From: Gordonia sp. ABSL11-1
GTDB lineage: Bacteria; Actinomycetota; Actinomycetes; Mycobacteriales; Mycobacteriaceae
Reading direction: 5' to 3'
Length of the DNA stretch: 64,000 bases
NCBI RefSeq assembly: GCF_030315685.1
Contig: NZ_JASXSI010000006.1
Span: 1 to 64,000 of the forward strand
Part shown: positions 45,341 to 61,070 of the stretch, in pieces
Position numbering within the stretch: the stretch's first letter is position 1
How the letters are laid out: each line of letters begins with the position of its first letter
Made by a program: the position numbers and the translations under genes
Notes under the pieces: model-generated
Database searches by the model: none
What the model saw: only the letters and a program-made list of their open reading frames with translations
What the model was told of the DNA's origin: nothing

Positions 45341-46647
45341 TGTCCGAGCCCACCCCGACACCGGCAGAACCCGCAGGGCGTCAGCGCTTCTCGCGTCGCG
45401 CCCTGCTGGGAGGCGCCGGAGTCGGGGTGGTCGCTGCGGCGGGCGGGGTCGCCATCGGCCGCGCGACGGCCGCCGAGGACACCGCGGGCGGCAAGGTGGT
45501 GCCGTTCCGCGGCGACCGGCAGGCAGGCATCATCACCGCCGCCCAGGACCGATTGCATTTCGCGAGCTTCGACGTCGTCACCGACTCCCGGTCCGACCTC
45601 GTCGCGATGCTGAAGGCCTGGACCGACGCAGCAGAACGCATGACGCGTGGCGAGGAGACGGTGCCCGGAGGCGCCGTCGACCACGGCGACTACACGCCCC
45701 CCGCCGACACCGGTGAGGCACTCGGCCTGAGCGCGGCAAACCTCACCCTCACGATCGGTTTCGGCCCAGGGTTGTTCGGCCCCAGCGCATCCGACCCCGC
45801 GAGACGCGACCGATTCGGGCTCGCGGACCGCAAACCTGCCGCATTGGTCGATCTGCCCGCGTTCGCGGCCGAGCGGATCGAACTGTCGCAGTCGTTCGGC
45901 GACATCTGCATCCAGGCCTGCGCCGACGACCCGCAGGTGGCCGTGCACGCCATCCGCAACCTCGCGCGGATGGGCCTCGGGGTTGTCGCGGTGCGCTGGT
46001 CTCAGCTCGGCTTCGGCCGTACGTCGTCGACCACACAGTCGCAAGAGACACCGCGAAACATGTTCGGCTTCAAGGACGGCACCGCGAATCTGCGTGCCGA
46101 GCAGACCGATCTCCTGGACCGATGGGTGTGGGTCGGCGCGGACGACAACCCGTCGTCGGCGCAGTGGATGACGGGCGGGACGTACCTCGTCGCACGGCGA
46201 ATCCGGATGGACATCGAACCGTGGGATCGAGCGAACCTGTTAGAGCAGGAGCAGATCGTCGGGCGGCTCAAGGGTTCCGGCGCCCCACTCGGGCAGGAAG
46301 GTGAGTTCGACGCCCCGGACTTCAACGTCACGTCGTACGGCGCACCGATGATCCCCCGCAATGCCCATGTACGCCTGGCCCATCCGGACAATCTCGGCGG
46401 AATCAGGATCCTGCGGCGCGGCTACAACTTCACCGACGGCTCCGACGGATTCGGGCATCTCGACGCAGGTCTGTTCTTCATCGCCTTCAACCGGGACACG
46501 AGCAAGCAGTTCGTCCCGATGCAGCAAGTGCTCTCCCGGCAGGACGCGATGACCGAGTACTTGATACCGAACGGGTCGTCGGTGTTCGCGATCCCACCCG
46601 GCGTGCAGCCCGGGGAATGGTGGGGACAGCACCTGTTCGAGGGCTGA
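45340..46647 (+). CDS. efeB: Dye-decolorising peroxidase EfeB (Tat-exported)
   Basis: A 435-residue heme peroxidase. The N-terminus has a twin-arginine signal, RFSRRALLGGAGVGVVAAAG. The DyP signature GFKDGTANLR with the distal Asp is near residue 248. The proximal heme His is probably in NAHVRLAHPDN near 345. In EfeUOB the peroxidase oxidises ferrous iron or extracts iron from heme at the surface. It is the last gene of the operon and ends 16 bp before the convergent mazG. Confidence 0.93.
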   Translation: MSEPTPTPAEPAGRQRFSRRALLGGAGVGVVAAAGGVAIGRATAAEDTAGGKVVPFRGDRQAGIITAAQDRLHFASFDVVTDSRSDLVAMLKAWTDAAERMTRGEETVPGGAVDHGDYTPPADTGEALGLSAANLTLTIGFGPGLFGPSASDPARRDRFGLADRKPAALVDLPAFAAERIELSQSFGDICIQACADDPQVAVHAIRNLARMGLGVVAVRWSQLGFGRTSSTTQSQETPRNMFGFKDGTANLRAEQTDLLDRWVWVGADDNPSSAQWMTGGTYLVARRIRMDIEPWDRANLLEQEQIVGRLKGSGAPLGQEGEFDAPDFNVTSYGAPMIPRNAHVRLAHPDNLGGIRILRRGYNFTDGSDGFGHLDAGLFFIAFNRDTSKQFVPMQQVLSRQDAMTEYLIPNGSSVFAIPPGVQPGEWWGQHLFEG

Positions 46648-46663: not shown

Positions 46664-47683
46664 TCACTGATCTTCGTCGCCGACCGGGTCTTGTTTCGCG
46701 CCGATCGGGTCCAGATCTTCGTCGATCGGGTCCAGATTTTCGCCGACCGGGTCCAGATTTTCGCCGACCGGGTCCAGTTCGTCGCCGACCGGGTCCAGAA
46801 TCGCCAACCAGTCTGCGCGATTCCTCGGTGTGATCCCCTGTTCGCGTCCGCGCATCTCAGTGTCGTGCACCTGTGCCATCATATCGCGAACACGTTGTCG
46901 GGCAACCTCTTCGACGCTGTCACCGCCGATACCGATGGTCACGCGGGTGATCGCTGGATCGATGCGCTCCATCGGATACCCTGCCGACTCGAGCCGCTCC
47001 ATCACCTTCTGCGTCAGTGCGAGGGCCGGCGCGGTGGTGGCGACGCCGTCCAGCACCGACCCACGCTCCTTCTCCGCCGCCTTGCGTTCCTCCCATTCGC
47101 TGATCTGGGTCTCCAGGTCGGCGTGCGCGCCGGAGAGGATCCCCGGTGTCCGGCCACGGACCTTCGCGGTGAAACTTCGTGCGACGTCATCGATGTCGAA
47201 AGGATGGTCGGGATCATCGGCAGCGATGCGCGCATGAAACAACACCTGCAGCAGCAGGTCGCCGAGCTCCTCGCGCAGCAGGTCGCGATCATCGTCGTCG
47301 ATCGCATCGAGCAGTTCGTAACACTCTTCCAGGAGATACCGACGCAGGGATGGATGGGTCTGGGTGCTCTCCCACGGTCCCCGTCGTCGCAATGTGTCCA
47401 TCAGCGCCACCGCCTCCAGAAGCGCATCACCCGGCACCGGGCGCGCGGCGATGACGTCGTCGCCGCGTTCGATACGGGCGCGGGTCAACGGATGCTGCCG
47501 ATCGCCGGTGAGCAACGTCGTGTCGGGGTCGTCGCGCTCGGCCCAGGTGGCACCGGTGAGTCCGAGGTCCCACAACGTCGACGGGTGGACGTCCTCGGTG
47601 ACCACGAGCGGACCGTTCAGCAGGGGCAGTGCTCGCGCCGGGATCGTGTCCGGCCGCAACGGATCGAGCAGGATCACGGTCAT
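46664..47683 (-). CDS. mazG: NTP pyrophosphohydrolase MazG with repeat-encoded tail
   Basis: A 339-residue house-cleaning pyrophosphatase that hydrolyses NTPs such as oxidised or non-canonical ones; ortholog of Rv1021. The Mg-binding core has YLLEECYELLDAIDDDDRD and LREELGDLLLQVLFHARIAA near residues 137-170. A tetrapyrrole-methylase-like N-terminal part is reduced, as in mycobacteria. The last 45 residues are a repeat, LDPVGDE, LDPVGEN, LDPVGEN, LDPIDED, LDPIGAK, QDPVGDE, encoded by the 21-bp array at 46680-46805. The ATG at 47683 starts MTVILLDPLRPD. The frame is open further up to 47803, through a second array. Confidence 0.88.
   Translation of the reverse strand: MTVILLDPLRPDTIPARALPLLNGPLVVTEDVHPSTLWDLGLTGATWAERDDPDTTLLTGDRQHPLTRARIERGDDVIAARPVPGDALLEAVALMDTLRRRGPWESTQTHPSLRRYLLEECYELLDAIDDDDRDLLREELGDLLLQVLFHARIAADDPDHPFDIDDVARSFTAKVRGRTPGILSGAHADLETQISEWEERKAAEKERGSVLDGVATTAPALALTQKVMERLESAGYPMERIDPAITRVTIGIGGDSVEEVARQRVRDMMAQVHDTEMRGREQGITPRNRADWLAILDPVGDELDPVGENLDPVGENLDPIDEDLDPIGAKQDPVGDEDQ
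46680..46805 (-). repeat. 21-bp tandem repeat array A, inside mazG
   Basis: Six head-to-tail 21-bp units fill 46680-46805. The plus-strand consensus is CCGACCGGGTCCAGATTTTCG, for example at 46743-46763. On the mazG coding strand each unit encodes the heptad LDPVGEN or a variant. The units differ at several places, so the array is not freshly amplified. Confidence 0.9.
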
Positions 47684-47744
47684 CGGCGATCCATCTCCCT
47701 TCGGACGACGTGACACGAACCTAGCGCAGCGTCCCGATTCTCCG

Positions 47745-47807
47745 CCGATCGTGTCCACAAACGCGCCGACCGTGTCCAGAATCCCACCGACCGGGCCCGC
47801 CATCCAC
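47745..47807 (-). repeat. 21-bp tandem repeat array B, upstream of mazG
   Basis: Three units of the same family, starting at 47745, 47766 and 47787 (CCGACCGTGTCCAGAATCCC at 47766), with a degenerate fourth on the left from about 47724. Orientation is the same as array A. The frame of the heptad is open and in phase with mazG, about 40 residues upstream of its chosen start. Confidence 0.8.
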
Positions 47808-47868
47808 AGACCTCGGCGTAGGCGCATGCCGATGAAACCGATCCGGTCCGCTCTGCGTCTAAACGGGC

Positions 47869-48759
47869 ATGACACGCAATTCAGAGATCACCCGCAAACG
47901 GCTCGTCAAGCGGCAGCAGGCCGTCGAGCGTAGTGGAATGACCGCCGAGGAGTTCGCCGGCGCTTTCAGCCATCTTCGCGGCGGACTCTATGTCGAGCGG
48001 TCCGCAATTCTGCCACCAACCGAGCGCATCGATGCGATTGCACTGAGCGCAGATGGGCAACCCGTCGTCGGCGCAATAGCAGCTCTCATCAAGCACGGGG
48101 GAAAGTGGCACGACGCCGACTTCGAGGTCGAACTCTTCCGGCACCCCTCGGGATGCGGGAAGCCGGGGCGCGGAAGTCTGGTGCATCGGACCGAACTGAC
48201 CGAATCGGACGTCATGATCCTCGACGGGATCGCGGTCACGACTCCTCTTCGAACAGCATATGACCTGGGACGACGCGGACCGGAGTGGCGTGCGCTGGGA
48301 CATCTCGACGACTTGGCACGGGCAACCGGATTCTCGGTGGCGGACCTCCAGGAGTACGCCGACGAGCGCGACGGATATCGAGGAATCCGACAGTTACGAT
48401 TCCTCATTCCCTTGATCGATGCGCTCGCCGAGTCACCACCCGAGAGCTGGGTTCGCCTCATGATGATCCGCGCCGAGCTGCCGACGCCCGACCTACAGAT
48501 CGAGGTCGAGAACGAGTCAGGCCATGTCTACGCCCGCATCGACCTCGGCTATCGAGAGCCGAAGATCGCGATCGAGTACGACGGCGAGGACTTCCACTCG
48601 ACTCCTGAGCAGCGTGCGCACGACGCCGCGCGCGATGAACAGCTACGCAGGGACGGCTGGATCGTCATTCGCATCAACGCCGAGCAGCTTCGGACGGCGC
48701 CGTGGCTCATCATCATCGCCATCGAGAACGCCCTGCGGTCGCGTGGCGCGTACTTCTGA
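47869..48759 (+). CDS. DUF559/Vsr-like nuclease-fold protein
   Basis: A 296-residue protein of a type common in actinobacteria. The N-terminal half looks like an AbiEi-type antitoxin/winged-helix region (MTAEEFAGAFSHLRGGLYVE, LVHRTELTESDVMILDGIAV, TTPLRTAYDLGRRG). The C-terminal part has the Vsr/DUF559 endonuclease-like core: IDLGYREPKIAIEYDGEDFH near residue 230, then DAARDEQLRRDGWIVIRINA. Asp and Glu of this core could bind metal. Whether it cuts DNA is unknown. It is divergent from mazG with array B between them, and array C follows it 43 bp after its stop. Confidence 0.75.
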   Translation: MTRNSEITRKRLVKRQQAVERSGMTAEEFAGAFSHLRGGLYVERSAILPPTERIDAIALSADGQPVVGAIAALIKHGGKWHDADFEVELFRHPSGCGKPGRGSLVHRTELTESDVMILDGIAVTTPLRTAYDLGRRGPEWRALGHLDDLARATGFSVADLQEYADERDGYRGIRQLRFLIPLIDALAESPPESWVRLMMIRAELPTPDLQIEVENESGHVYARIDLGYREPKIAIEYDGEDFHSTPEQRAHDAARDEQLRRDGWIVIRINAEQLRTAPWLIIIAIENALRSRGAYF

Positions 48760-48801
48760 CGAGCGGACGCCGACGACACGAGGGGCGTCGGAGAACGGCC
48801 C

Positions 48802-48927
48802 GAGCACGATCGACGACAAGTCGGACACGCTCGGCGAGAATCTGGACACGGTCGGCGAAAAGTTGGACACGGTCGGCATATTCTCGGGCACGGTCGGCGA
48901 ATTGCGGGGCACGATTGCCGGAGTGGA
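48802..48927 (+). repeat. 21-bp tandem repeat array C
   Basis: Six 21-bp units start at 48802, 48823, 48844, 48865, 48886 and 48907. The clearest is GGACACGGTCGGCGAAAAGT at 48844. It is the reverse complement of the array A family, so relative to its own upstream gene it has the same sense as array A has to mazG. No gene covers it; the frame reading LDTVGEK is open through the array. Confidence 0.9.
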
Positions 48928-48993
48928 GTCAGGTCGTGGAGGGGGCATGTCGCCGGGGTGGAGGTCCGAACGCGGCCCGCCGACGACCACCGA

Positions 48994-51900
48994 TCACCCG
49001 CCCTCGACCGGTTTGATCTGCGACAGGAATGTCGTCAGGTAATCCACCAACTCCTCGTCGCGCAGTCGCGGTGACCCGACACCGCCGGTTCGCGGGATCG
49101 GCAGGGTCACGACCGAGGTCGTCGCCCGGTAGCTCGCCGACGAGTACAGCCGCTTGAGCCGGACCTGCTCGCTGTCGAGTAGCGTCATCGGCGACACCTT
49201 GACACCTGTTCCCGCCAAACCGATCTCGGTCACCCCACGCTCGCGGCACCGCAACCGGAGTCGCGCGATCGACGCCAGTCTCCGGGTCTCCTCCGGTGGT
49301 TCGCCGTAGCGGTCGACCAGTTCGGCGAGCACGCCGTCGACGGCCCCGTCGTTCTCCGCGGAGGCCAACTTGCGGTATGCCTCGAGTCGGAGGCGGTCCG
49401 AATCCACGTACTCGACCGGGATGTGGGCATCCACGGGCAGGTCGATGCGCACCTCCGTCGGTTCCGAACTCGTGACCGGCTTGCCGTCGGCGGCGGCGCG
49501 ATAGGCCTCGACCGCTTCCCCGACCAGTCGCACGTACAGGTCGAATCCGATGCCGGCGACGTGTCCGGATTGCTCCGCGCCCAACACATTTCCCGCACCA
49601 CGCAGTTCGAGATCCTTCAGCGCGACGGCCATCCCGGCGCCCAATTCGTTGTTCTGGGCGATCGTCGCGAGGCGGTCGTAGGCGGTCTCGGTCAGCGGAC
49701 GCTCCGGGCTGTAGAGCAGGTAGGCGTATCCGCGCTCACGACTGCGGCCGACCCGACCGCGTAACTGATGCAGCTGCGAGAGTCCGAGATTCTCGGCGCG
49801 GTCGACGATGAGGGTGTTGGCGTTCGAGATGTCGAGGCCGGTCTCGATGATGGTGGTGCACACCAGGACATCGAACTCGCGATTCCAGAATCCGGCGACG
49901 GTCCGTTCGAGCTGATCCTCGTTCATCTGTCCGTGGGCCACGACGACCCGCGCCTCCGGCACCATCTGCGCGATGTCACGCGCCGTCTTGTCGATCGTCG
50001 AGACGCGGTTGTGGACGTAGAACACCTGACCATCACGCAGCAGTTCACGACGGATCGCAGCCGCAACCTGTTTCGACGAGTAGCCACCCACATAGGTGAG
50101 CACCGGATGCCGCTCCTCCGGCGGTGTCAGGATCGTCGACATCTCGCGAATACCGGCCATCGACATCTCCAGGGTGCGCGGGATCGGCGTCGCGGACATC
50201 GTGAGGACGTCCACGTGCGTGCGCAGCGACTTGATGTGCTCCTTGTGCTCGACGCCGAAACGTTGTTCCTCGTCGACGATCACGAGACCGAGGTCCTTCC
50301 ACGTGATGCCCGTCTGCAGGAGTCGGTGGGTGCCGATCACGATGTCGACCTCGCCGGTCGCCATCGCGTCGATGATCTCCTTGGACTCCTTGGAGTCGGT
50401 GAAGCGCGACAGCCCACGCACCCGGATCGGGAATCCCGTCATCCGCTCGGTGAAGGTCTGCAGATGCTGTTGCGCCAGAATCGTTGTCGGCACGAGGACG
50501 GCGACCTGCTTACCGTCCTGCACGGCCTTGAACGCGGCGCGGACCGCGATCTCGGTCTTGCCGTAACCGACATCGCCGACGATGACGCGGTCCATCGGCA
50601 CCGCACGTTCCATGTCCGACTTGACCTCCGCGATGACCGTGAGTTGGTCCATCGTCTCGGTGAAGTCGAAGGCGTCCTCCATCTCGCGCTGCCACGGGGT
50701 GTCGGGACTGAACGCGTACCCGGGCGCGGCATGTCGCGCAGCGTAGAGCTGGACGAGTTCGCCGGCAATCTCCCGAACCGCCTTGCGCGCCTTGCGTTTG
50801 GTGTTCTGCCAGTCCGATCCGCCCAGTTTCGACAGCGACGGCTGCTCACCGCCGACATAGCGCGAGAGCTGATCGAGGGCGTCCATCGGGACGTACAGGC
50901 GGTCGCCGGGCTGACCACGCTTGCCGGCGGCGTATTCGAGTACCAGGTACTCGCGACGCGCACCCGAGACCGTCCGTTCGATCATCTCGACGAACTTGCC
51001 GATGCCGTGCTGATCGTGCACGACCAGGTCGCCCGCGGTCAGCGCGAGAGGATCGACCTGGTTGCGACGTTTCGCCGGCAGTTTTCGCCCGTCGCGAACG
51101 CCGGCCACCCGGTTGCCGGTCAGATCTGTCTCGGTGACGATCACCAGGCCGGCATCCGGACACACGATGCCCGACCGCAGCGTGCCGTGGAACACCGACA
51201 CCTGTCCCGGCTCGGGTCGCGCCCCGCTTTCGACGATCTCGGCGGGCACCTCGGCCTCGCCGAGACGTTCACCGATCCGCTGGGCGGTCCCCTTGCCGGC
51301 CACGACGATCGCCGCCGCACCCCCGGACGTCACATGGGCGCGCAAAGACGCAAACGTGGTGGCGATGTCGTGTTCATTACCGTGCGGAGCCGGCGCGGCG
51401 GTCAGGTCGAGCTCGAGTTCGTCGCCGCTGCCCGTCGACAGCGGGCTCATGGTCCACCACGACCGGCCGGCGGCGAGCGTCGTCTTCTCCACGTCGTCGA
51501 GGGGACGGTAGGCGCTGGCCTGCAAGTCGATACCCGAGCCATCGGCGTTACGTCCGTCGACCGGCGCGTCCGCGCCGAGGGCTGCGGCCGTCCACGATGC
51601 CTCGAGGAACTCCGCACCGGTCTGGGCGAGGTCGGCTGCTCGTGTGCGGACCTTCTCCGGGTCGAGCAGCAACACACCGGTCCCGGTCGGCATGACCTCG
51701 GTGAGCAACTGCATCTGTCCCTCGACGAGCATCGGGATCAGCGCTTCCATACCCTCGACGGGGATCCCCTCGGCGAGCTTCGACAGCATCTCGGCGAGCA
51801 CACCGTCGGCCGAGTGCTCTGCGGCGAGGTCGGCCGCGCGCCCGCGCACGGCGGGGGTCAGCATCAGTTCCCGACCGGGGTGCACACGGACGGTCGCGAC

Positions 51901-52632
51901 CTCGATCTCCGGCTGGCTGCGCTGGTCGGCCACCGAGAACGCACGCATCTCGGAGATCTCGTCGCCCCAGAACTCCACGCGCACCGGATAGTCGGCCGTC
52001 GTCGGGAACACGTCGAGGATCCCGCCGCGCACGGCGAACTCACCACGTCGACCGACCATGTCGACGCGCTCGTAGGCCATCTCGACGAGATCGGTCAGCA
52101 GGCCGTCGAAGTCGATCTCGATGCCCTCGCGCAGCTCGACGGTGCGCACCGCGCCGAGCCCCGGCGCCATCGGCTGCACCAGCGAACGCACGGTGGTGAC
52201 AACGACACGCAGCGGGGACCCGGCCTCGGGATGAGCGAGCCGGTACAGCACGGCGAGACGTTGGCCGACCGTGTCGGCGCTCGGCGAGAGTCGCTCGTGC
52301 GGGAGCGTCTCCCACGACGGGAACTGCGCGACCGATGCCGGGTCGTCGAGGAGTTCGGAGAGCTCGGCGGTGAGGTCGTCGGCCTCGCGGCCGTTCGCGG
52401 AGACGACGAGCAGGGGCGCGGTCCGGTCGGAGGCCGCGTCGGTCCCACCCGCGGCGGCGAGGCAGGCCACGACGAACGGTCGTGCGGCGTCGGGTGCGGT
52501 GATGTCGAGGCGGTCCTGACCGCGCCGACCGACCAGATCCGCGATGGCCTTGTCAGCGCAGGTGACCGCGGCAAGCCCGTGCAGGGCGGGGGTAGTCGAC
52601 ACTCCGACGATTGTAGGCAACGCCGATGACAC
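48994..52632 (-). CDS. mfd: Transcription-repair coupling factor Mfd
   Basis: A 1212-residue translocase that removes stalled RNA polymerase at DNA damage and recruits UvrA. The order is: N-terminal UvrB-like domain; RNA-polymerase-interacting domain with [17 protein letters not shown] near residue 505; motor domain with Walker [17 protein letters not shown] near 665, DEEQ box [15 protein letters not shown] near 770 and [19 protein letters not shown]; and TRG and autoinhibitory C-terminal regions. Length fits the family. The ortholog is Rv1020. It ends 67 bp from array C. Confidence 0.96.
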
Positions 52633-52635
52633 GGA

Positions 52636-53151
52636 TCAGGTCAGCGCTCGCTGCATGTAGATGCAGTCGATCCATTGCCCGAACTTGTAGCCCACGGCCG
52701 GGGTACGGCCGACCTCGACGAAACCGTGCTTGGCGTGCAGGGCGACCGACGCCTCCCCGCCCGTCGCCGCGATCACGGCGATCATCTGGCGGACATTGGT
52801 GGGGTCAGCGGCCTCGATCAACGCGCCCAACAGCGCGCCGCCGATGCCGCGGCCACCGGCCCCGGGATCGAGGTAGATGGTGTCCTCGGCTGTCCACGCG
52901 TAGGCCTTCTTGTCCCGGAAGGAACTCAGGTAGGCGAATCCGATGACCACCGCATCACCCGTGCCGCCGGCATCGTCGACGGCGACCACGAACGGCCGGT
53001 CCGCCGCCCGGATCGCGGCGAGCTTCGCTTCCCAGTGAGCCACCGTCGGCGCCTCGTAATCGAACGTGGCGACCGTGTGCTCGACGTAGTGTCCATAGAT
53101 GGCGGTGACGGCCGGGCAGTCGGCCGCGGTCGCGGGACGGATGGAGACCAT
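52636..53151 (-). CDS. GNAT acetyltransferase, phosphinothricin type
   Basis: A 171-residue GNAT enzyme of the phosphinothricin/methionine-sulfone N-acetyltransferase type. It opens with IRPATAADCPAVTAIYGHYV, has TVATFDYEAPT, and the acetyl-CoA loop DPGAGGRGIGGALLGALIEA near residue 96. A C-terminal GFVEVGRTPAVGYKFGQWID is typical. It acetylates amino groups of small amino-acid-like compounds. It starts three bases upstream of mfd on the same strand, so it leads that transcript. Confidence 0.88.
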   Translation of the reverse strand: MVSIRPATAADCPAVTAIYGHYVEHTVATFDYEAPTVAHWEAKLAAIRAADRPFVVAVDDAGGTGDAVVIGFAYLSSFRDKKAYAWTAEDTIYLDPGAGGRGIGGALLGALIEAADPTNVRQMIAVIAATGGEASVALHAKHGFVEVGRTPAVGYKFGQWIDCIYMQRALT

Positions 53152-53241
53152 GCCGACGATGATGCCGGATCGACGCAGGCAGCCCGAACACGGTACCGAC
53201 CGCGCGGAATCAACCGGACCACGGTCCCGTTAGATACCGAC

Positions 53242-54036
53242 ATGAGCGCAGCCGACTCCGTTGATCGTCCACCCACGCTGTTCCTCAGCCACGGCGCGCC
53301 ACCTCTGGTGGACAGCGAGCGCTGGGTGGACCAGCTCACCGAGCTCGCGGGCCGGCTGTCCCGTCCGTCCGCGATCCTCGTGGTATCGGCGCACTGGGAG
53401 GCTGCCCCGTTGACGATCGGATCGACCGATCCGACGACTCCGCTGACCTACGACTTCTGGGGCTTCCCCGATCGCTTCTATGAGACGACGTACTGGTCCC
53501 CCGGCGCCGACGAGCTGGCGGCGTCCGTCGAGGCGATGATGCCCGACAGCGAACCGATCGCCCACGATCGGCGGCGACGCCTCGACCACGGTGCCTACGT
53601 CCCGCTGACGGTGATGTACCCCGAGGCCGACATCCCGGTCCTCCAGGTCTCACTGCCGACCCTCGATCCCGAACGGCTGCTCGACCTCGGCCGCCGGCTC
53701 GCGCCGCTCCGCGACAACGGCGTGCTGATCATCGGCTCAGGATTCATCACGCACGGCCTGCCCTACCTCACCGATCCCACACCGGAGGCGACGCCGCCCG
53801 AATGGTCGGTCGAATTCGACGCGTGGGCGCACGAGCGTTTCGCCGCGGGTGATGTCGACGCGCTCATCGATTTCCGCAACCGGGCGCCGGGGATGCCATA
53901 CGCGCACCCGACCATCGAACATTTCGCTCCGCTGTTCGTCGCGCTGGGCGCGAGCGATGACGTCGGACAACCCCCCGATCAGGTCATCGACGGTTTCTGG
54001 ATGGGACTGGCGAAGCGGAGTGTCGTGCTCGCGTGA
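53242..54036 (+). CDS. DODA-type extradiol dioxygenase
   Basis: A 264-residue class III (LigB-like) extradiol ring-cleavage family protein, of the 4,5-DOPA dioxygenase (YgiD) type. Motifs: LFLSHGAPPLVD near residue 15, SAHWEAAPLTIG near 50, RLDHGAYVPLTVMYP near 114 (catalytic His) and GSGFITHGLPYL near 168. The metal is Zn or Fe held by His residues. The ATG at 53242 was chosen; the upstream extension is antisense to the GNAT gene. The promoter is shared with the divergent GNAT gene. Confidence 0.9.
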   Translation: MSAADSVDRPPTLFLSHGAPPLVDSERWVDQLTELAGRLSRPSAILVVSAHWEAAPLTIGSTDPTTPLTYDFWGFPDRFYETTYWSPGADELAASVEAMMPDSEPIAHDRRRRLDHGAYVPLTVMYPEADIPVLQVSLPTLDPERLLDLGRRLAPLRDNGVLIIGSGFITHGLPYLTDPTPEATPPEWSVEFDAWAHERFAAGDVDALIDFRNRAPGMPYAHPTIEHFAPLFVALGASDDVGQPPDQVIDGFWMGLAKRSVVLA

Positions 54037-54084
54037 CGCGCGTGGCGGCAGCCGGACAAGTCGCCGGCACCTGCGAACCGCTTG

Positions 54085-54795
54085 CTACAGAACGGTTTCC
54101 GTGTCGTCGACGATAGACCGCTCCCGCGACTCCACGTAGTCCGGGCCGACGAGTTCCGGGCTCGGGTCGAGGCGGGTGAGCCCGTTCCAGCAGAGGTTCA
54201 CCAGGTGCGCAGCGACCACCTCCTTCGACGGCTCCCGGACGTCGAGCCACCACTGGGCGGTCACCGACACCATCCCGACGAGCGCCTGCGCGTACAGCGG
54301 AGCCAGCGTCGGGTCGAAGCCGCGGCGCTCGAAGTCACCGGCCAGAATGTGTTCGACCTGACTGATCGCATCGTTGAGCAGGCTGGAGTACGTGGCCGTC
54401 TCGCTCGCGTCGGTCCGGTCTCCGCGGACGAGGATGCGGAAGCCGTCGGTCCGCTCCTCCATGTAGGTGAGGAGGGCGAGGGCCACCTGCTGAATCCGGT
54501 ACAGCGAGCGGTTCTTCGTGAGCGACGACGTGACCATCTCCAGCAAGGTCTCCATCTCGCGGTCGACGACGACCGCGTACAGGCCTTCCTTGCCACCGAA
54601 GTGTTCGTAGACGATCGGTTTGGAGACACCGGCGCGCTGGGCGATCTCCTCGATCGAGGTGCCCTCGAATCCGCGCTCGGCGAAAAGCCCCCGGGCCACC
54701 TCGATGAGCTGCAGGCGCCGCTGAGCGCCGGTCATCCGGGCACGAGGTGCGCGCTGCACCTCGCCGGACTTGTCGGTCGGGCGGCTCACTGCCAT
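54085..54795 (-). CDS. TetR regulator (Rv1019-like)
   Basis: A 236-residue TetR protein. The helix-turn-helix is at about residues 27-72: RLQLIEVARGLFAERGFEGT and VSKPIVYEHFGGKEGLYAVV. Rv1019 in M. tuberculosis is a TetR protein next to mfd; order and orientation fit here apart from the GNAT and dioxygenase genes in between. The ligand is unknown. It is divergent from the NTF2-like gene that starts at 54841, separated by only 45 bp, so control of that gene is likely. Confidence 0.88.
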   Translation of the reverse strand: MAVSRPTDKSGEVQRAPRARMTGAQRRLQLIEVARGLFAERGFEGTSIEEIAQRAGVSKPIVYEHFGGKEGLYAVVVDREMETLLEMVTSSLTKNRSLYRIQQVALALLTYMEERTDGFRILVRGDRTDASETATYSSLLNDAISQVEHILAGDFERRGFDPTLAPLYAQALVGMVSVTAQWWLDVREPSKEVVAAHLVNLCWNGLTRLDPSPELVGPDYVESRERSIVDDTETVL

Positions 54796-54840
54796 GGGAC
54801 AACCCTATCCACGACGGCCCGACTGCGGTAATCAGTAGAG

Positions 54841-55254
54841 ATGCTGACCATCGAGGAGATCTCGGCACGTCTCGAGATCCAACAGATCCTGACCGAGTAC
54901 TCGACCGCCGTGGATTCGCAACAGTTCGAGGATCTCGACCGGGTGTTCACCGCCGACGCGCGCATCGACTACAGCGCCACCGGCGGCATAGTCGGCGATC
55001 TTGCGGAGGTGAAAGCGTGGCTCGCGCAGGTGCTCCCGGCCTTCTCGGCCTACTGCCACCTCGTGGGCAATCATGACATCCGGGTCGACGGCGATGCAGC
55101 CACCACGCGCTCGCTCTGTCTGAATCCGATGCAGACGCCGGACAACTCGACGTTCCTGTTGGGGCTCTGGTATTCCGACACGTGGATTCTCACCGACGAC
55201 GGCTGGCGCATTACCACCCGGACGCTTGAGAGGTGCTTCGACAAACTGATTTGA
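54841..55254 (+). CDS. NTF2/SnoaL-like protein
   Basis: A 137-residue alpha+beta-barrel protein. It opens MLTIEEISARLEIQQILTEY and has DLDRVFTADARIDYSATGG, FSAYCHLVGNHDIRVDGDAA and DDGWRITTRTLER. This is the NTF2-like family that includes steroid isomerases, dehydratases and many enzymes of unknown role. An Asp-Tyr pair near residues 35-43 and a His at about 69 could be catalytic. It is probably controlled by the divergent TetR protein. Confidence 0.85.
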   Translation: MLTIEEISARLEIQQILTEYSTAVDSQQFEDLDRVFTADARIDYSATGGIVGDLAEVKAWLAQVLPAFSAYCHLVGNHDIRVDGDAATTRSLCLNPMQTPDNSTFLLGLWYSDTWILTDDGWRITTRTLERCFDKLI

Positions 55255-55466
55255 CTCATCGCGACGAAAAGTCCGAGCCACGGTCCGACGAGCACGAAAA
55301 GCCAGCTCACACACTAATCTGAGACAACTCGACTACGTTTGCCCACGACTTTGACGACGAATATGACAACGTCTGAACGCCATCTCGATAAGGTGATTAC
55401 GGTTCGGGGCCCTGATTCCGCTCAGCGGTATCAGTCAAGGGAGCACTGAGAGCGAGGGGAGATCTC

Positions 55467-56111
55467 GTGCAGTTGTGGGACTACGTTCAGGGTCACGCGT
55501 CGAACCTGACGTTCCTGACCTACCAGCACGCGTCCTTGGCCTTCCAGACGGTGCTCGTGGGCACAATCGTCGCGGTCATCGTCGCAGTCGCTGTCTACCG
55601 CCTTCCGTTTTTCTCGGCGCTCACTTTGACCAGCAGCCGAGTCGCGCTGACGATTCCCTCGTTGGCCCTGCTGGCACTCCTGATCGTGCCTTTCGGGCTC
55701 GGAGTGGTTCCGTCGTTCATCATGCTCGCATTCTTCGCGACCATGCCAGTGATCGGAAACGCCATCGTCGGACTGCGGTCGGTTCCCGATTCGGTGATCG
55801 AATCGGCACGCGGAATCGGGCTGTCGCGCTGGCGGATTCTGCTGTCTGTGGAACTTCCGATCGCGTGGCCCGTCATCCTGACCGGCATCAGGGTCTCCAC
55901 GCAGATGATCGTCGGCGTGGCGGCGATCGTCGCCTACGTTCTCGGGCCCGGCCTGGGGTCCCTCATCTTCAACGGACTTTCCCGACTCGGCGGCGCCAAC
56001 GCCCTCGAGATGGCCCTGACCGGAACGATACTCATCGTGGCGATCGCCCTGGTATTCGACGGACTCCTGGTTCTCCTCGGACGTTTCACCATCTCCAAAG
56101 GATTGTCATGA
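55467..56111 (+). CDS. OpuC-type ABC transporter permease
   Basis: A 214-residue permease of the glycine-betaine/choline/carnitine uptake system (OpuCB/ProW-like). It has five or six helices and the EAA loop ESARGIGLSRWRILLSVELP near residue 112 that contacts the ATPase. The start is GTG at 55467 with GAGGGGAG upstream. Its stop overlaps the ATPase ATG by four bases. It leads a four-gene coupled operon plus one duplicate. The 210 bp upstream should hold the promoter; no clear operator is seen. Confidence 0.9.
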   Translation: MQLWDYVQGHASNLTFLTYQHASLAFQTVLVGTIVAVIVAVAVYRLPFFSALTLTSSRVALTIPSLALLALLIVPFGLGVVPSFIMLAFFATMPVIGNAIVGLRSVPDSVIESARGIGLSRWRILLSVELPIAWPVILTGIRVSTQMIVGVAAIVAYVLGPGLGSLIFNGLSRLGGANALEMALTGTILIVAIALVFDGLLVLLGRFTISKGLS

Positions 56112-57379
56112 CGCATTCGGCCACCGACCAGATCTCGCAGCGCACCGTCACCGGAGCGCCGATTCGCCTCGACGGCGTGGTGAAACGCTATCGCGGACAG
56201 ACCAAGCCGGCCGTCGAGCGCCTGGATCTCGACATAGAGGCGGGTGACATCGTCGCGTTTGTGGGTCCTTCCGGATGCGGCAAGACGACCACCTTGAAGA
56301 TGATCAACAGGCTCATCGAGCCCAGCGAAGGCCACATCTTCATCGGCGGCAACGATGCGACCAAAGAGGATCCCGACAAACTTCGCCAGTCGATCGGCTA
56401 CGTCATCCAGTCGGGCGGGTTGTTCCCGCACTGGTCGGTGGCGAAAAACATCGGCGCCATCCCCCGCGTCCTCGGATGGGACAGGAAGCGAATCGCCGAA
56501 CGCACCGAGTACCTGCTCGACCTCGTCGGACTCGACGCAGCGACATTCGCCGACCGCCTCCCCAAGGACATGTCGGGCGGTCAGCAACAGCGCGTCGGCG
56601 TCGCTCGTGCCCTAGCCGCCGACCCGCCCGTCCTACTGATGGACGAGCCTTTCAGTGCAGTCGATCCGATCACCCGAGTTCGATTGCAGGACAGTCTGAT
56701 CGCGATCCAGCACGAACTCGCCAAGACCATCGTCATCGTCACGCACGACTTCGAGGAGGCGACGAAGCTCGGCGACAAGGTGTTGATCCTCTCCGAGGGC
56801 GGGCACGTCGAGCAGTACGCCGCACCAGAGGAGATCCTGGCCAACCCGGCAACGCCTTTCGTCGAGGAGTTCGTGGGCTCAGGCGCCACACTCGCTCATC
56901 TGACCCTCACCCGCGTAAGGGATGTGGAGCACGAATCGGTGACGACCGCGACGGTTGGTGAGCCGGCCGGAGATGTCATCGGTCGCGCCCGAGCCGCAGG
57001 CCACTCCTGGGTTGTCGTGGTCGACAACGAAGGCCACCCACGCTCATGGCCATCGATCGACGAATTGAACTCCAAGCCGCAGGTCTCCGACTACATCGAC
57101 CGGCGAATCCCCGTGGTGGCCCGGTCCTCGACCCTCAACGACGCTCTCGACACCATGCTGGCCGCCAGCCAGGGTGGTGCGCTGATCACCGACGCACGTG
57201 GAGCGGTCGTCGGATCGCTGACGATCAAATCGGTCATGGAGGTCATTCGGACACAACTCGCCGAGGCACGAGAAGACGCAGTGGAGCACGGCTACGAGAG
57301 CCATGCCGAGGGCACACACACTGGAGAGACCCCGGTGATCGTGGCCGCGGACGATGACGAAGGTACGGCTCCCCGGTGA
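56108..57379 (+). CDS. OpuC-type ABC transporter ATPase
   Basis: A 423-residue ATPase. Walker A is GPSGCGKTTTLK near residue 55, Q-loop VIQSGGLFP near 99, signature MSGGQQQRVGVARAL near 156, and Walker B LLMDEPFSAVDP near 178. The C-terminal part has a pair of CBS domains (about 275-395), which in OpuA and OpuC sense ionic strength and gate transport under osmotic stress. The tail is acidic. It overlaps both neighbours by four bases (ATGA and GTGA). Confidence 0.93.
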   Translation: MTHSATDQISQRTVTGAPIRLDGVVKRYRGQTKPAVERLDLDIEAGDIVAFVGPSGCGKTTTLKMINRLIEPSEGHIFIGGNDATKEDPDKLRQSIGYVIQSGGLFPHWSVAKNIGAIPRVLGWDRKRIAERTEYLLDLVGLDAATFADRLPKDMSGGQQQRVGVARALAADPPVLLMDEPFSAVDPITRVRLQDSLIAIQHELAKTIVIVTHDFEEATKLGDKVLILSEGGHVEQYAAPEEILANPATPFVEEFVGSGATLAHLTLTRVRDVEHESVTTATVGEPAGDVIGRARAAGHSWVVVVDNEGHPRSWPSIDELNSKPQVSDYIDRRIPVVARSSTLNDALDTMLAASQGGALITDARGAVVGSLTIKSVMEVIRTQLAEAREDAVEHGYESHAEGTHTGETPVIVAADDDEGTAPR

Positions 57380-58116
57380 TCACGCGACTCCGCCGACTCC
57401 CGATGGACGTATGGTTCGAGCCACTCCTCATCGTCGTGCTCGGTGTCGGCTACATCGTCTGGTATCAGTCGACGACGTTCACCGAAACCGAGCAGGCCGC
57501 CCTCGGCTGGGACAACCTCCGTACCACCATCTTCGATCACATCAAACTGACGCTCACCGCAACCGTCATCGTGGTCGTCGTCGCGATCCCGCTCGGCATA
57601 CTGCTGACCCGCCCCTCGATGCGGTGGCTGAACCCCATCGCGGTGAACATCGCGAACATCGGACAAGCCGCTCCCGCAGTCGGTCTCCTCGTCCTGTTCA
57701 CCTTCTGGCTCGGTACGGGATTCACAACGGCCGTCATCGGCCTCGTGGTCTATGCGATCCTGCCGATCCTCCAGAACACCATCGTTGGTCTGCGACAAGT
57801 GGATCAACGCACGATCGAGGCGTCGCGCGGGATCGGGTACTCCGGGCTTCGAACCCTGGTCCAGGTCGAATTGCCCTTGGCCGTACCGGTGATCCTCAAC
57901 GGCGTTCGCACTGCCCTCGTGATCCTCGTCGGAACCGCGACGTTGAGCACGTTCATCGGCGCCACCAGCCTGGGTACGTTGATCACCACGGGCGTGACGC
58001 TGTTCCTGCCCAAACTACTCATCTCCGGTGCCATCCTCGTCGGCCTGCTCGCCCTGATCATCGATTGGCTCGGTCGGCTGGTCGAATTGTTCGCGACCCC
58101 GCGAGGTGTGGCATGA
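57376..58116 (+). CDS. OpuC-type ABC transporter permease (second)
   Basis: A 246-residue permease, the partner of the first. The EAA loop is EASRGIGYSGLRTLVQVELP near residue 155. It has a longer N-terminus (MITRLRRLPMDVWFEPLL) and six helices. GTG at 57376 overlaps the ATPase stop, and the end overlaps the binding-protein ATG. A damaged copy of its 3' end lies at 59134-59294. Confidence 0.9.
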   Translation: MITRLRRLPMDVWFEPLLIVVLGVGYIVWYQSTTFTETEQAALGWDNLRTTIFDHIKLTLTATVIVVVVAIPLGILLTRPSMRWLNPIAVNIANIGQAAPAVGLLVLFTFWLGTGFTTAVIGLVVYAILPILQNTIVGLRQVDQRTIEASRGIGYSGLRTLVQVELPLAVPVILNGVRTALVILVGTATLSTFIGATSLGTLITTGVTLFLPKLLISGAILVGLLALIIDWLGRLVELFATPRGVA

Positions 58117-59087
58117 AGCGCGTGGCAGGTGTGCTTGTCACGTTCGTGGCATCGGTTCTTACGATCGCCGGATGCGGCCTCGTCAGTTCATCGGGCACGT
58201 TCGACGCGGCCAGTCTCCCCGACGGCTCCAAGCCTCTCGAGGGAGCGAAGCTGACGGTGACGTCCAAGAGTTTCACAGAGGGAGTCATCCTCGGCAAGAT
58301 CACCGCGACATATCTGGCGGCAGCAGGTGCGGACATCACCGATCTGACCGGCGCACCCGGTTCGGCGTCGTCGCGCCAGGCGCAATTGAATGGCGATGCG
58401 GATCTGGTCTGGGAGTACACCGGAACCGGATGGGTCAATTATCACAACGAGACCGAGACGATCTCCGACCCGCAGGAGCTCTGGCAGAAAGTCCACGACA
58501 TCGAGAAGCAGGAATACGACCTCGAATGGTTGCCGCCGGCGAACTTCAACGACACTTACGCGTTCGCCGCGTCGAGTCCGACGGCGAAACGCCTGAATGT
58601 GCGCAGTCTGTCCGACGTCGCCCGGCTACCCGTTCAGGATCGCACCTTCTGCGTTGACGACGAGTTCTTCAGCCGCTCAGACGGTTTCGTACCCATGCTC
58701 GATAAGTACGGCATCCCGTACAACACGCCCAACGGCGTCCCCTCCGGGAATGTCACCCGAATGGACGCGGGCGTCGTGTACACGGCGACCGCGAAGAGCT
58801 CACCGTGCAACTTCGGCATGGTCTACACCACGGACGGCCGGATCAAGAACCTCGACCTCGTCGTGCTCGACGACGACAAGAAGTTCTTCCTGCCCTACAG
58901 CGGCACCGTCGTCGTTCGCGGCGAGATCTACCGCCGCTATCCACAACTGCCCGGACTCATCGCCAACATCTCGAATCGCCTGACCGATCAGATCATGCAG
59001 GACCTGAACGGGAAAGTCGACATCGACGGCGAAGATCCGTCGACAGTCGCCTACGACTGGCTCAAGAGCGAGGGATTGATCGAGTAA
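58113..59087 (+). CDS. OpuC-type substrate-binding lipoprotein, copy 1
   Basis: A 324-residue lipoprotein with the lipobox TIAGC near residue 21, followed by GLVSSSGTF. It is of the quaternary-amine (glycine betaine, choline) type: TSKSFTEGVILGKI at the start of the mature domain, then GSASSRQAQLNGDADLVWEY and TGTGWVNY. It captures osmoprotectants outside the membrane. It overlaps the permease stop. A second copy, about three quarters identical by hand alignment, follows at 59295. Confidence 0.92.
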   Translation: MKRVAGVLVTFVASVLTIAGCGLVSSSGTFDAASLPDGSKPLEGAKLTVTSKSFTEGVILGKITATYLAAAGADITDLTGAPGSASSRQAQLNGDADLVWEYTGTGWVNYHNETETISDPQELWQKVHDIEKQEYDLEWLPPANFNDTYAFAASSPTAKRLNVRSLSDVARLPVQDRTFCVDDEFFSRSDGFVPMLDKYGIPYNTPNGVPSGNVTRMDAGVVYTATAKSSPCNFGMVYTTDGRIKNLDLVVLDDDKKFFLPYSGTVVVRGEIYRRYPQLPGLIANISNRLTDQIMQDLNGKVDIDGEDPSTVAYDWLKSEGLIE

Positions 59088-59133
59088 ACGATCGCTCGAT
59101 CTCGGTAAGGCCGCCACAGTCGGATCTCCGTCC

Positions 59134-59294
59134 GTCGGCACAGCCTACGCAGAGTACCTTCAGCGGCGCTTCGCGCGTGGCACACTGAGAACCACCGGTG
59201 TCACGCTCTGCCTGCCGAAACTGCTTGTGTCGCGATGGTCTTGGTCGGCTTGCTGACCGTGATCATCGAACTCGTCACAACCCTGAGGACTCTC
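59134..59294 (+). pseudogene. Remnant of duplicated permease 3' end
   Basis: The stretch 59134-59294 aligns to the last part of the second permease gene (about 57930-58110). GTLRTTGVTLCLPKLLVS is readable, and after a frameshift near 59230 AMVLVGLLTVIIELV continues in another frame. The intact permease has GTLITTGVTLFLPKLLIS and AILVGLLALIIDWL at these places. It ends directly before the second binding-protein gene, exactly as the intact permease ends before the first. This shows that the permease 3' end and the binding-protein gene were duplicated together. Confidence 0.75.
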
Positions 59295-60290
59295 ATGAAC
59301 CGCCCAGCCCGACGATGTAGACCCCTCCGGACGACATTGATGCTGATGGCGTCCGGGGTCCTGCTCCTGGCCGGCTGCGGCCTGGTGAGTTCGTCCGGCA
59401 CCTTCACAGTCGCCTCATTGCCCGATGGACAGAAACCGTTGCAGGGCGCCAAGATCGCCGTGACATCGAAGAACTTCACCGAGAGCGTCTTGCTCGGCAA
59501 GATCGCGGCCACCTACCTTGCGGCGGCCGGCGCCGACGTCGTCGACCTCACCAACGCACCGGGGTCGGCGTCGTCCCGGCAGGCCCAACTCAACGGCGAC
59601 GCGGACCTGTTGTGGGAGTACACCGGAACGGCGTGGGTGACCTACCTGCACGAGACCGAGGTCATCCCCGACCCGCAGGAACTGTGGCAGAAGGTGCACG
59701 ACGCCGAGATCGAGCAGAACAATCTCGTATGGCTGCCGCCTGCGAACTTCAACGACACCTACGCGTTCGCGGTGTCGGGTCCGACAGCCAAGCGCCTCAA
59801 CGTGAAGACGATGTCGGACATCGCGAAGCTGCCTGTCGACGAACGCACGTTCTGCATCAACGACGAGTTCTTCAGTCGCCCCGACGGAATGCTACCGATG
59901 CTGAAGACCTACGGCATTCCGTACAACACACCGAACGGCGTCCCGGCCGGCAACGTGACCCAGATGGACTCCGGCGTCGTCTACACGTCCACGGCCAACA
60001 GCGCGCCGTGCAACTTCGGCATGGTCTACACCACCGACGGACGCATCAAGAACCTCGAGCTGACCGTTCTCGAGGACGACAAGAAGTACTTCCTGCCCTA
60101 CAGCGGGACCGTCGTGGTGCGCAAGGAGACCCTGGATCAGTACCCGCAGATCCAGCCGCTGATGGACACGCTCTCCGAGCGGCTCACCGACGAGGTCATG
60201 CAGGAACTCAACGGTCAGGTCGACATCGAGGGCGAGGATCCGTCCGACGTCGCCTACAACTGGCTCAAGAGCGAGGGCCTCATCACCTGA
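59295..60290 (+). CDS. OpuC-type substrate-binding lipoprotein, copy 2
   Basis: A lipoprotein of 331 residues from the ATG at 59295, paralog of the gene just before it. Same mature length and core motifs (TSKNFTESVLLGKI, GSASSRQAQLNGDADLLWEY, TGTAWVTYLHE), lipobox LLAGC. Differences gather in the C-terminal helices and near WVNYHNE/WVTYLHE, which may change substrate choice. The frame extends to 59235, but that part is the permease remnant. A start at 59340 (MLMASGVLLLAGC) is also possible. Its stop falls in a degenerate unit of repeat array D. Confidence 0.88.
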   Translation: MNRPARRCRPLRTTLMLMASGVLLLAGCGLVSSSGTFTVASLPDGQKPLQGAKIAVTSKNFTESVLLGKIAATYLAAAGADVVDLTNAPGSASSRQAQLNGDADLLWEYTGTAWVTYLHETEVIPDPQELWQKVHDAEIEQNNLVWLPPANFNDTYAFAVSGPTAKRLNVKTMSDIAKLPVDERTFCINDEFFSRPDGMLPMLKTYGIPYNTPNGVPAGNVTQMDSGVVYTSTANSAPCNFGMVYTTDGRIKNLELTVLEDDKKYFLPYSGTVVVRKETLDQYPQIQPLMDTLSERLTDEVMQELNGQVDIEGEDPSDVAYNWLKSEGLIT

Positions 60291-60306
60291 CCGCAAAGCC
60301 GGAATC

Positions 60307-60369
60307 AGACCCGATCGGCGCGATTCTGAACCCGGTCAGCGGAATCCAGGGCACGATCGGCGGGGTCAG
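60307..60369 (+). repeat. 21-bp tandem repeat array D
   Basis: Three units at 60307, 60328 and 60349, for instance GAACCCGGTCAGCGGAATCC at 60328, with a worn fourth at 60286-60306 that includes the end of the binding-protein gene. They belong to the same family as arrays A-C and run in the same sense as the gene upstream. The right end reaches the stop codon of the convergent TetR gene. Confidence 0.75.
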
Positions 60370-61070
60370 TCGCGGTCCATACGCCGCTGCTGGATCGCCC
60401 GGATCTGCTCCTCGCTGAGCGGTGGCGTGGGTATCGCGGCGGCGTCCGGCTCAGCATGGATGCCGCGCAGGAAGAGTTCCACGTAGCGCCGCCATGCTCC
60501 CGGGACCGTCGCTTCGGTGAGGTCGGCGAACGACGAGATCATCGTGAAGATGCCGAAGAAGTCAGTGCTCGAGACGTCGGATCGCAGCACACCGGCTGCC
60601 ATCGCCCGGTCGAAGATCTCCTCCATGTGCCGGGTCAGCTGCGCCTTCGTCGACTCGATGTCCGGGTGCGAATGGTCGATGCGCATGATGATGGCCGCCA
60701 ACCCACGGTCCGCGGCGAGCACACTGCAGAACCACGTCAGCAGATCCACCACCGCCGCCCATGGATCGGGGTCGTCGAGGGCGTCGTTCGCATGCGCCAC
60801 GACCTCCTTGAGGTGCTCGGCGAAGATGCCGGTGATCAGGTCGTCACGGTTCGCGAACCGCCGGTAGACCGTGCCGACGCCGACCCCTGCACGTTCGGCC
60901 ACCTCGTCCATGGACACCTCGAGGCCACGCTCGGCGAACAGGTCGCGGGCGGCCTCGATGATCCGCAGGCGGTTGCGCTCGGCATCCGCCCGCAGCTGAC
61001 GGGGTTCGACCTCTCTGGGCTCGATCCCGTCGGGTTCGACTTTCGGGTTCGACGACGTGTGCATGGTCAC
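60366..61070 (-). CDS. TetR repressor of the adjacent exporter
   Basis: A 234-residue TetR protein. The helix-turn-helix is at about residues 33-78: RLRIIEAARDLFAERGLEVS and VGVGTVYRRFANRDDLITGI. It is divergent from a DHA2 drug exporter with two operator-like dyads in the 88 bp between them, the usual arrangement for repressor-exporter pairs. An ATG two codons inside is an alternative start. Confidence 0.9.
   Translation of the reverse strand: MTMHTSSNPKVEPDGIEPREVEPRQLRADAERNRLRIIEAARDLFAERGLEVSMDEVAERAGVGVGTVYRRFANRDDLITGIFAEHLKEVVAHANDALDDPDPWAAVVDLLTWFCSVLAADRGLAAIIMRIDHSHPDIESTKAQLTRHMEEIFDRAMAAGVLRSDVSSTDFFGIFTMISSFADLTEATVPGAWRRYVELFLRGIHAEPDAAAIPTPPLSEEQIRAIQQRRMDRD

Follow-up and report, generated by a model that had tools for sequence, protein, structure and literature searches.

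A polar tandem repeat with a 21-bp period is dispersed through the genome of Gordonia sp. ABSL11-1, its arrays lying mainly behind the 3' ends of genes and combining a constrained core with linkers that drift at a nearly neutral rate. Four such arrays are found in the window analysed here, the first 64,000 nucleotides of contig NZ_JASXSI010000006.1 (assembly GCF_030315685.1), and each was located within a few bases of the coordinates given in an earlier note on this DNA, with the 21-bp period described there. The unit, GGNCNCGNTCGGCG followed by a free linker and repeated every 21 bp, is a putative DNA-binding site. We tentatively favour, at slightly below an even chance, the reading that the arrays are polar boundary elements of gene 3' ends, on which copies of a protein would be bound side by side.

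The ABSL11-1 genome comprises 5.7 Mb in 121 contigs. When it was searched for the core GGACNCGGTCGGCGA with at most one mismatch, 198 matches were obtained, against 11 for the reversed pattern, which bears out the dispersed family described in the earlier note. With 150 candidates scored, a two-unit profile gave at least 130 hits, representing at least 88 arrays at a minimum of 58 places. A position weight matrix (PWM) applied to 55 loci and the window called 90 arrays in 61 clusters, with none in loci L082 and L126; at a score of 13 or more, it matched 2 of 894,128 positions of reversed sequence. Called arrays contain 1 to 10 units, and each unit consists of a 15-base core and a 6-base AT-rich linker (AT fraction 0.25 in the core and 0.67 in the linker, from 40 units). 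At locus L087 (3500-3667), an eight-unit array with several identical units in succession, for which the loci compared from Gordonia sp. OPL2 hold no counterpart, is likely a recent expansion. The earlier note had recognised no named family of this kind and none turned up here: no Rfam family at gathering score covered the arrays in six loci (33,283 bases), and no name for the 21-bp family was found in the literature, where coverage of subscription journals was poor. In several genomes, another short repeat (..CACTCGGCTAGCGCCTCG..GGCACTCGACCACCGAT.. or a related form) immediately adjoins arrays or separates two of them, at L195, L208 and L211 (G. araii), L226 (UBA7599), the internal gap of L113 and L062 of OPL2.

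The arrays were compared with those of Gordonia sp. OPL2, G. araii NBRC 100433 and UBA7599. The flanks of 52 of the 61 ABSL11-1 clusters match an array locus among 60 OPL2 stretches, and array places are stable between these two genomes, which are about 89% identical. End-to-end alignment was feasible for 41 loci, and divergence was measured on these. Core positions 6, 7, 9, 11, 14, 15 and 18 differ in 4–8% of cases and core positions 12, 16, 17 and 19 in 11–16%, while the free positions 8, 10, 13 and 20 differ in 24–37% and the linkers in 33%. The corresponding value is 27% for non-coding flanks (1113 of 4057 sites, with 77 gap openings) and 16% for all flanks. The linkers change roughly as fast as non-coding DNA, and the core is held back.

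This drift leaves the period intact. Over the four genomes, 620 pairs of neighbouring same-strand cores that lie 18–24 bp apart were counted, and in 603 of these the distance is 21 bp exactly (158 of 165 in ABSL11-1, 225 of 233 in OPL2, 173 of 175 in G. araii and 47 of 47 in UBA7599); the count excludes one overlapping locus and eleven others whose arrays lie inside genes. Adjacent linkers differ at 0.54 of their sites in both ABSL11-1 and OPL2, at 0.32 in G. araii and at 0.62 in UBA7599. From the indel ratio of the flanks, about 0.40, 0.40, 0.17 and 0.55 indels per linker would be expected in ABSL11-1, OPL2, G. araii and UBA7599, respectively, an expectation that assumes simple drift and that exchange of units within arrays would lower, to the disadvantage of the favoured reading. 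The number of units is unequal in 32 of the 41 aligned loci; whole units are thus gained and lost with the spacing kept. Fixed 21-bp spacing despite drifting linkers indicates DNA sites set at intervals of two helical turns, and the conserved sites, the drifting linkers and the two-turn spacing together point to a DNA-bound protein. Of the four explanations offered by the earlier note (a selfish repeat, a protein-binding array, a 3'-end RNA element and a source of protein tails), the protein-binding array fits best with a conserved core, a near-neutral linker and conserved spacing.

Gene context was taken from a home-made gene caller. In ABSL11-1, 55 clusters occupy callable intergenic gaps, of which 31 are convergent, 9 and 8 co-directional and 7 divergent; three further clusters lie inside genes and three at contig ends. 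Convergent gaps account for 35 of 63 callable clusters in OPL2, 13 of 27 in G. araii and 7 of 12 in UBA7599. As background, the window has 58 gene pairs, 14 of them convergent, and of 186 pairs at a distance of over 1 kb from any array 18 are convergent, the latter figure being possibly biased because the loci had been picked around arrays. The earlier note had placed three of the window arrays at or just past gene 3' ends and one upstream of mazG, each in the sense of its gene. The link to gene ends holds. A shared sense is not supported as a rule: the window arrays at 46677-46802 and 60307-60363 are antisense to neighbouring genes, and where an array of a single orientation follows just one gene end, between co-directional neighbours, 17 of 22 run antisense to that gene (p = 0.008; 8 of 10 in ABSL11-1, 6 of 9 in G. 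araii and 3 of 3 in UBA7599). In OPL2, this applies to 9 of 12. The start of the array coincides with the stop codon or lies one base into it in 6 of 14 measured distances in G. araii and in 2 of 7 in UBA7599; in ABSL11-1, the closest non-overlapping array start is 3 bp away. Where the arrays lie and how they are oriented would suit a boundary at the ends of genes.

A 3'-untranslated element acting at the RNA level, in which the C-rich strand would load Rho or an RNA-binding protein and so end or stabilise transcripts, ranks third among the explanations, as an unlikely one. It would agree with the C-rich strand found downstream of many stop codons (C 0.39–0.44, G 0.24–0.27), with the lack of structure in that strand beyond that of shuffled sequences (mean z of 0.36 in ABSL11-1, 0.85 in G. 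araii and -0.06 in UBA7599), with the antisense polarity of units behind genes and with the array starts at stop codons in G. araii. The exact 21-bp spacing combined with drifting linkers is, however, hard to account for in RNA, the specificity of the core exceeds what a Rho site is generally known to require, and some arrays are already preceded, as judged by eye, by a terminator-like hairpin.

Clusters containing both orientations follow a fixed order. The minus array comes before the plus array in 64 of 65 mixed clusters of the four genomes (23 of 24 in ABSL11-1, 32 of 32 in OPL2, 6 of 6 in G. araii and 3 of 3 in UBA7599, with L095 as the exception), where OPL2 is not independent, as it shares most array places with ABSL11-1. 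Since the facing order is the same in convergent, co-directional and divergent gaps, it seems to be a property of the element itself. The gap between facing cores lies near 4.7 + 10.5n bp (R = 0.80 for 24 gaps in ABSL11-1 and R = 0.78 for 32 in OPL2), and the phase predicted from ABSL11-1 holds in G. araii and UBA7599 pooled (V-test p = 0.005, n = 9); helical phasing of the facing arms is suggestive only. The inner units of facing arrays show no excess of matches over shuffles (p = 0.88 for 24 pairs in ABSL11-1 and 0.57 for 32 pairs in OPL2), on which ground selection for a hairpin or cruciform, which would leave paired changes between them, was rejected.

Mu- and Tn7-like elements have ends with several transposase sites that face each other. 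The arrays could accordingly be remnants of transposon ends, each with several transposase sites, most interiors having been lost. The minus-then-plus order irrespective of gene context would fit such an origin, as would the DUF559 gene of the window, which sits between two arrays and is missing at this place in the Gordonia genome G034. We consider it very unlikely, as the gene enclosed by facing arrays at L085 appears by eye to be an ordinary uracil-DNA-glycosylase-type gene and no target duplication was shown, the array-free relatives being too diverged at the places compared; Mu- and Tn7-type transposases were not searched for. Moreover, DUF559 genes occur in 16 of 16 Gordonia genomes tested, array-rich or not, and the DUF559 gene was rejected as a mobiliser on these grounds.

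Several arrays are found in open frame inside protein-coding genes. They occur in non-ribosomal peptide synthetase (NRPS) genes (L109, with L137 as its OPL2 counterpart, L119 and L223), in an oxidoreductase-like membrane gene (L112), in the genes for NAD-glutamate dehydrogenase (L205), EccC (L209) and a hypothetical protein (L194) of G. araii, and in those for GlgB (L227) and a DnaX-like protein (L229, containing a run of N) of UBA7599; Pfam was run for L205, L209 and L227, and the remaining names were given by eye. Translated frames of such arrays include ADRAHN, SPTVPTI and LGSVGDD. A 15-bp tandem repeat (DHTPA and DHTLA residues) follows right after the NRPS array at about 1740-1810 of L109 (L015 numbering). 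The array-bearing loop of GlgB is plain in 15 of 19 other loops aligned; about four units are present in G. araii and shorter unit-like stretches in genomes G009, G010 and G044. The orthologous EccC linker reads CCGACCGTGCCC in G. araii, CCGACCGAGCCC in UBA7599 and CCGACTGGGCCC in G009, and its residues change with the DNA variant from PTVP to PTEP and PTGP, respectively. In G. araii and UBA7599 the linker variant is also the main unit of the genome; of the two or more unit types present in G009, one is that of its EccC linker. Arrays are either homogenised within each genome or follow a changing recognition. It is possible, although in our estimate rather improbable, that the arrays belong to a patchy bacterial system in which a DNA-binding protein coats them behind genes, so ending or insulating transcription units, and shifts in its recognition rewrite them, including those inside housekeeping proteins.

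The in-frame linkers in several proteins, together with a MazG tail that is open in both ABSL11-1 and OPL2, are the observations in favour of a protein-coding repeat, that is, of a unit selected as a protein heptad. Such selection is hardly credible, given that the majority of arrays are intergenic, that several frames and both strands are in use, that the free positions 8, 10, 13 and 20 are not confined to third codon positions of one frame, and that the residues of the EccC linker follow the DNA. The earlier note had also proposed the repeat as a source of protein tails. Such tails do occur, in MazG and in other proteins, but the use of several frames and both strands and the placing of the free positions make them look like a by-product.

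Distribution was assessed with a multi-variant model and strict filters in 59 Gordonia genomes. Hits were obtained in 29 of them, with 68–155 in six genomes, 8–23 in three and 1–5 in 20, some of which may be due to chance; 30 genomes had none. The six array-rich genomes are those of ABSL11-1, OPL2, G. araii, UBA7599, G009 and G050. A one-variant scan had indicated large families in just four Gordonia species, an estimate superseded by the multi-variant model. In an order-level scan, 391 non-Gordonia genomes had at most three pattern matches each, compared with 80 in ABSL11-1. Williamsia sp. 1138 has a three-unit minus array adjoining the stop codon of a plus-strand gene (PriA-like by eye) and facing a four-unit plus array, and this pair looks like a real member of the family. 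Matches in Cellulomonas, Sorangium and Acidobacteria were short runs and were judged to be chance or unrelated. Phage and plasmid collections gave no match to the one array compared with them (window 48780-48940), and the exact three-unit pattern was absent from viral contigs. A multi-copy mobile array in G009 was considered and rejected; its four copies (L130-L133) share up to 5 kb at 99.7–100% identity and are probably redundant contigs of one place.

The main rival to a protein-bound boundary is a dispersed repeat that carries no genes and is selfish or neutral. It would be spread by a lineage-specific enzyme or by recombination, its core being conserved for recognition by the enzyme, and would persist where it does least harm, i.e. 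behind genes, in convergent gaps and, in frame, in flexible protein linkers. This explanation, already listed in the earlier note, is still a live one without being the best fit, and we give it a real but clearly minor chance. It is supported by a distribution that is patchy, six of the 59 Gordonia genomes having large families, and by in-frame arrays in proteins whose relatives mostly show a plain loop, the unequal unit numbers between ABSL11-1 and OPL2, recent expansions such as that of L087 with its runs of identical units, and unit variants that differ between species. It is opposed by the 52 of 61 clusters at places held in OPL2, where the core is conserved and the linkers drift, and by the conserved spacing, for which an idle repeat has no need. 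Moreover, a Y1 transposase of the type associated with repetitive extragenic palindromic (REP) elements (RAYT, PF01797) was found in none of 16 Gordonia genomes, array-rich ones included, whereas the control was positive in 5 of 14 known genomes. If the selfish explanation is true, a repeat with species variants inserts in frame into core proteins and alters the sequence of their linkers, which would be a clear example of DNA-level drive moulding proteins. On either this or the boundary reading, the large and small families within one genus amount to replicate natural experiments.

For the boundary reading, a repeat of two helical turns would allow adjacent protein copies to line up along the same helix face. 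Being polar, located mainly behind gene 3' ends and often in convergent gaps, and forming a minus-then-plus pair where they face each other, the bound arrays would act as a roadblock or insulator at the ends of transcription units, against read-through, antisense transcription or supercoiling arising from the neighbour. Some bacteria would then end or insulate their genes by a protein-coated DNA array, and the arrays would be ready bait for the protein. A number of observations weigh against this. No binding protein turned up, no search for co-occurring genes having been made. With about 90 arrays in a genome of 5.7 Mb, the majority of gene ends have none and, as 30 of 59 Gordonia genomes are without a hit, any boundary role must be dispensable. 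The seven clusters in divergent gaps and the three inside genes are out of place for such a role. In convergent gaps, single arrays do not favour the gene to which they are antisense, being nearer to it in 8 cases in ABSL11-1, 7 in OPL2, 7 in G. araii and 3 in UBA7599, and nearer to the sense gene in 10, 9, 4 and 3, respectively. A terminator-like hairpin followed by T residues precedes some arrays (L207, L216 and L231, by eye). In addition to the neighbouring cores counted above, 18 more lie 16 or 25–58 bp apart, mostly in OPL2. As to helical phasing, decayed units on the 21-bp lattice occur in the gaps between facing arms and confound the 10.5-bp phase, a null model with two random founder offsets reaches the ABSL11-1 phase value in 4.7% of trials, and the G. 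araii gaps, taken by themselves, give no significant phase (R = 0.47, n = 6).

Iterons, found at replication origins, are direct repeats with a spacing of some two helical turns, the protein being bound on one face of the DNA. Like these and other two-turn-spaced site arrays, the Gordonia arrays keep their 21-bp spacing (603 of 620 neighbours) despite drifting linkers; unlike iterons, they occur at dozens of chromosomal places. The mycobacterial interspersed repetitive units, known from the same order, are dispersed tandem repeats at gene boundaries with a longer unit and, compared by description only, are alike in being gene-boundary tandem repeats and unlike in unit length. The palindromic elements of Rickettsia are mostly coding and lie in frame inside many unrelated proteins. 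The Gordonia repeat resembles them in its in-frame copies in unrelated proteins (NRPS, EccC, NAD-glutamate dehydrogenase, GlgB and others) and differs in that its arrays are mostly intergenic and tandem.

REP elements and bacterial interspersed mosaic elements (BIMEs) are described as short, numerous and dispersed over intergenic regions, frequently those of convergent genes, and as having species-specific versions, with BIMEs alternating in orientation and some being bound by gyrase, IHF or DNA polymerase I (PMC1525189, PMC2817692). The REP unit is given as an imperfect palindrome of 20–40 bp with a GTAG or CGTC tag (PMC3733652). The Gordonia arrays share with REP and BIME the extragenic location, often in convergent gaps (31 of 55 callable ABSL11-1 clusters), but their unit is not self-complementary, lacks a GTAG or CGTC tag and is repeated head to tail with an exact 21-bp period. 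Identity with REP/RAYT was therefore rejected, as palindrome, tag and RAYT are all lacking. The TAACTGA direct repeats of Beggiatoaceae have a 7-bp unit just upstream of start codons and are proposed to be sites of a not-yet-known regulator (PMC4679880). The Gordonia arrays are like them in forming many intergenic sets of one tandem unit with a patchy distribution, and unlike them in having a unit of 21 bp behind genes. Among bacterial interspersed repeats, REP/BIME is the nearest kind.

The arrays of the window and the genes beside them are listed in Table 1.

Table 1. Repeat arrays and adjoining genes in the 64,000-nucleotide window of Gordonia sp. ABSL11-1
Feature	Coordinates	Strand	Remarks
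efeB-like peroxidase gene	45340..46647	+	Named by eye; convergent to mazG
mazG with array-encoded tail	46664..47683	-	PF03819; start taken as ATG of conserved part
Array, 6 units of 21 bp	46677..46802	-	Antisense to efeB; doubles as C-terminal tail of MazG
Array, 3 units	47742..47804	-	Divergent gap between mazG and DUF559 gene; same place in OPL2
DUF559 / REase_MTES_1575-like gene	47869..48759	+	Flanked by two arrays
Array, 4 clear and 2 weak units	48802..48921	+	Convergent gap between DUF559 gene and mfd; same place in OPL2
mfd	48994..52602	-	Named by eye; convergent to DUF559 gene
Gene ahead of fourth array	59235..60290	+	
Array, 3 weak units (2 called by PWM)	60307..60363	+	Between two convergent genes
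Regulator-like gene	60366..61070	-	By eye; stop adjoins fourth array

The first array lies 29 bases past the efeB stop (46647) and is in sense for the MazG tail that it encodes. It is present at the same place in OPL2, where the tail is also open. The Gordonia genome G034 has no array at mazG, its MazG ending in ..DAWLRAASIG, and in this genome mazG lies next to mfd, with neither arrays nor the DUF559 gene in between; ABSL11-1 and OPL2 have the DUF559 gene with its flanking arrays in this interval. The array at 48802 lies 42 bases past the end of the DUF559 gene and at least 72 bases from the mfd stop, and the PWM called four of its units, at 48817-48900, both end units being weak. The fourth array is positioned 16 bases past the end of the plus-strand gene; it is antisense to the minus-strand gene, whose stop is 2 bases away. 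Facing inverted pairs are common elsewhere in the ABSL11-1 genome, and the window shows none clearly. A glycine riboswitch (RF00504) at L081 328-429, away from the array, was the one Rfam match in the six loci compared.

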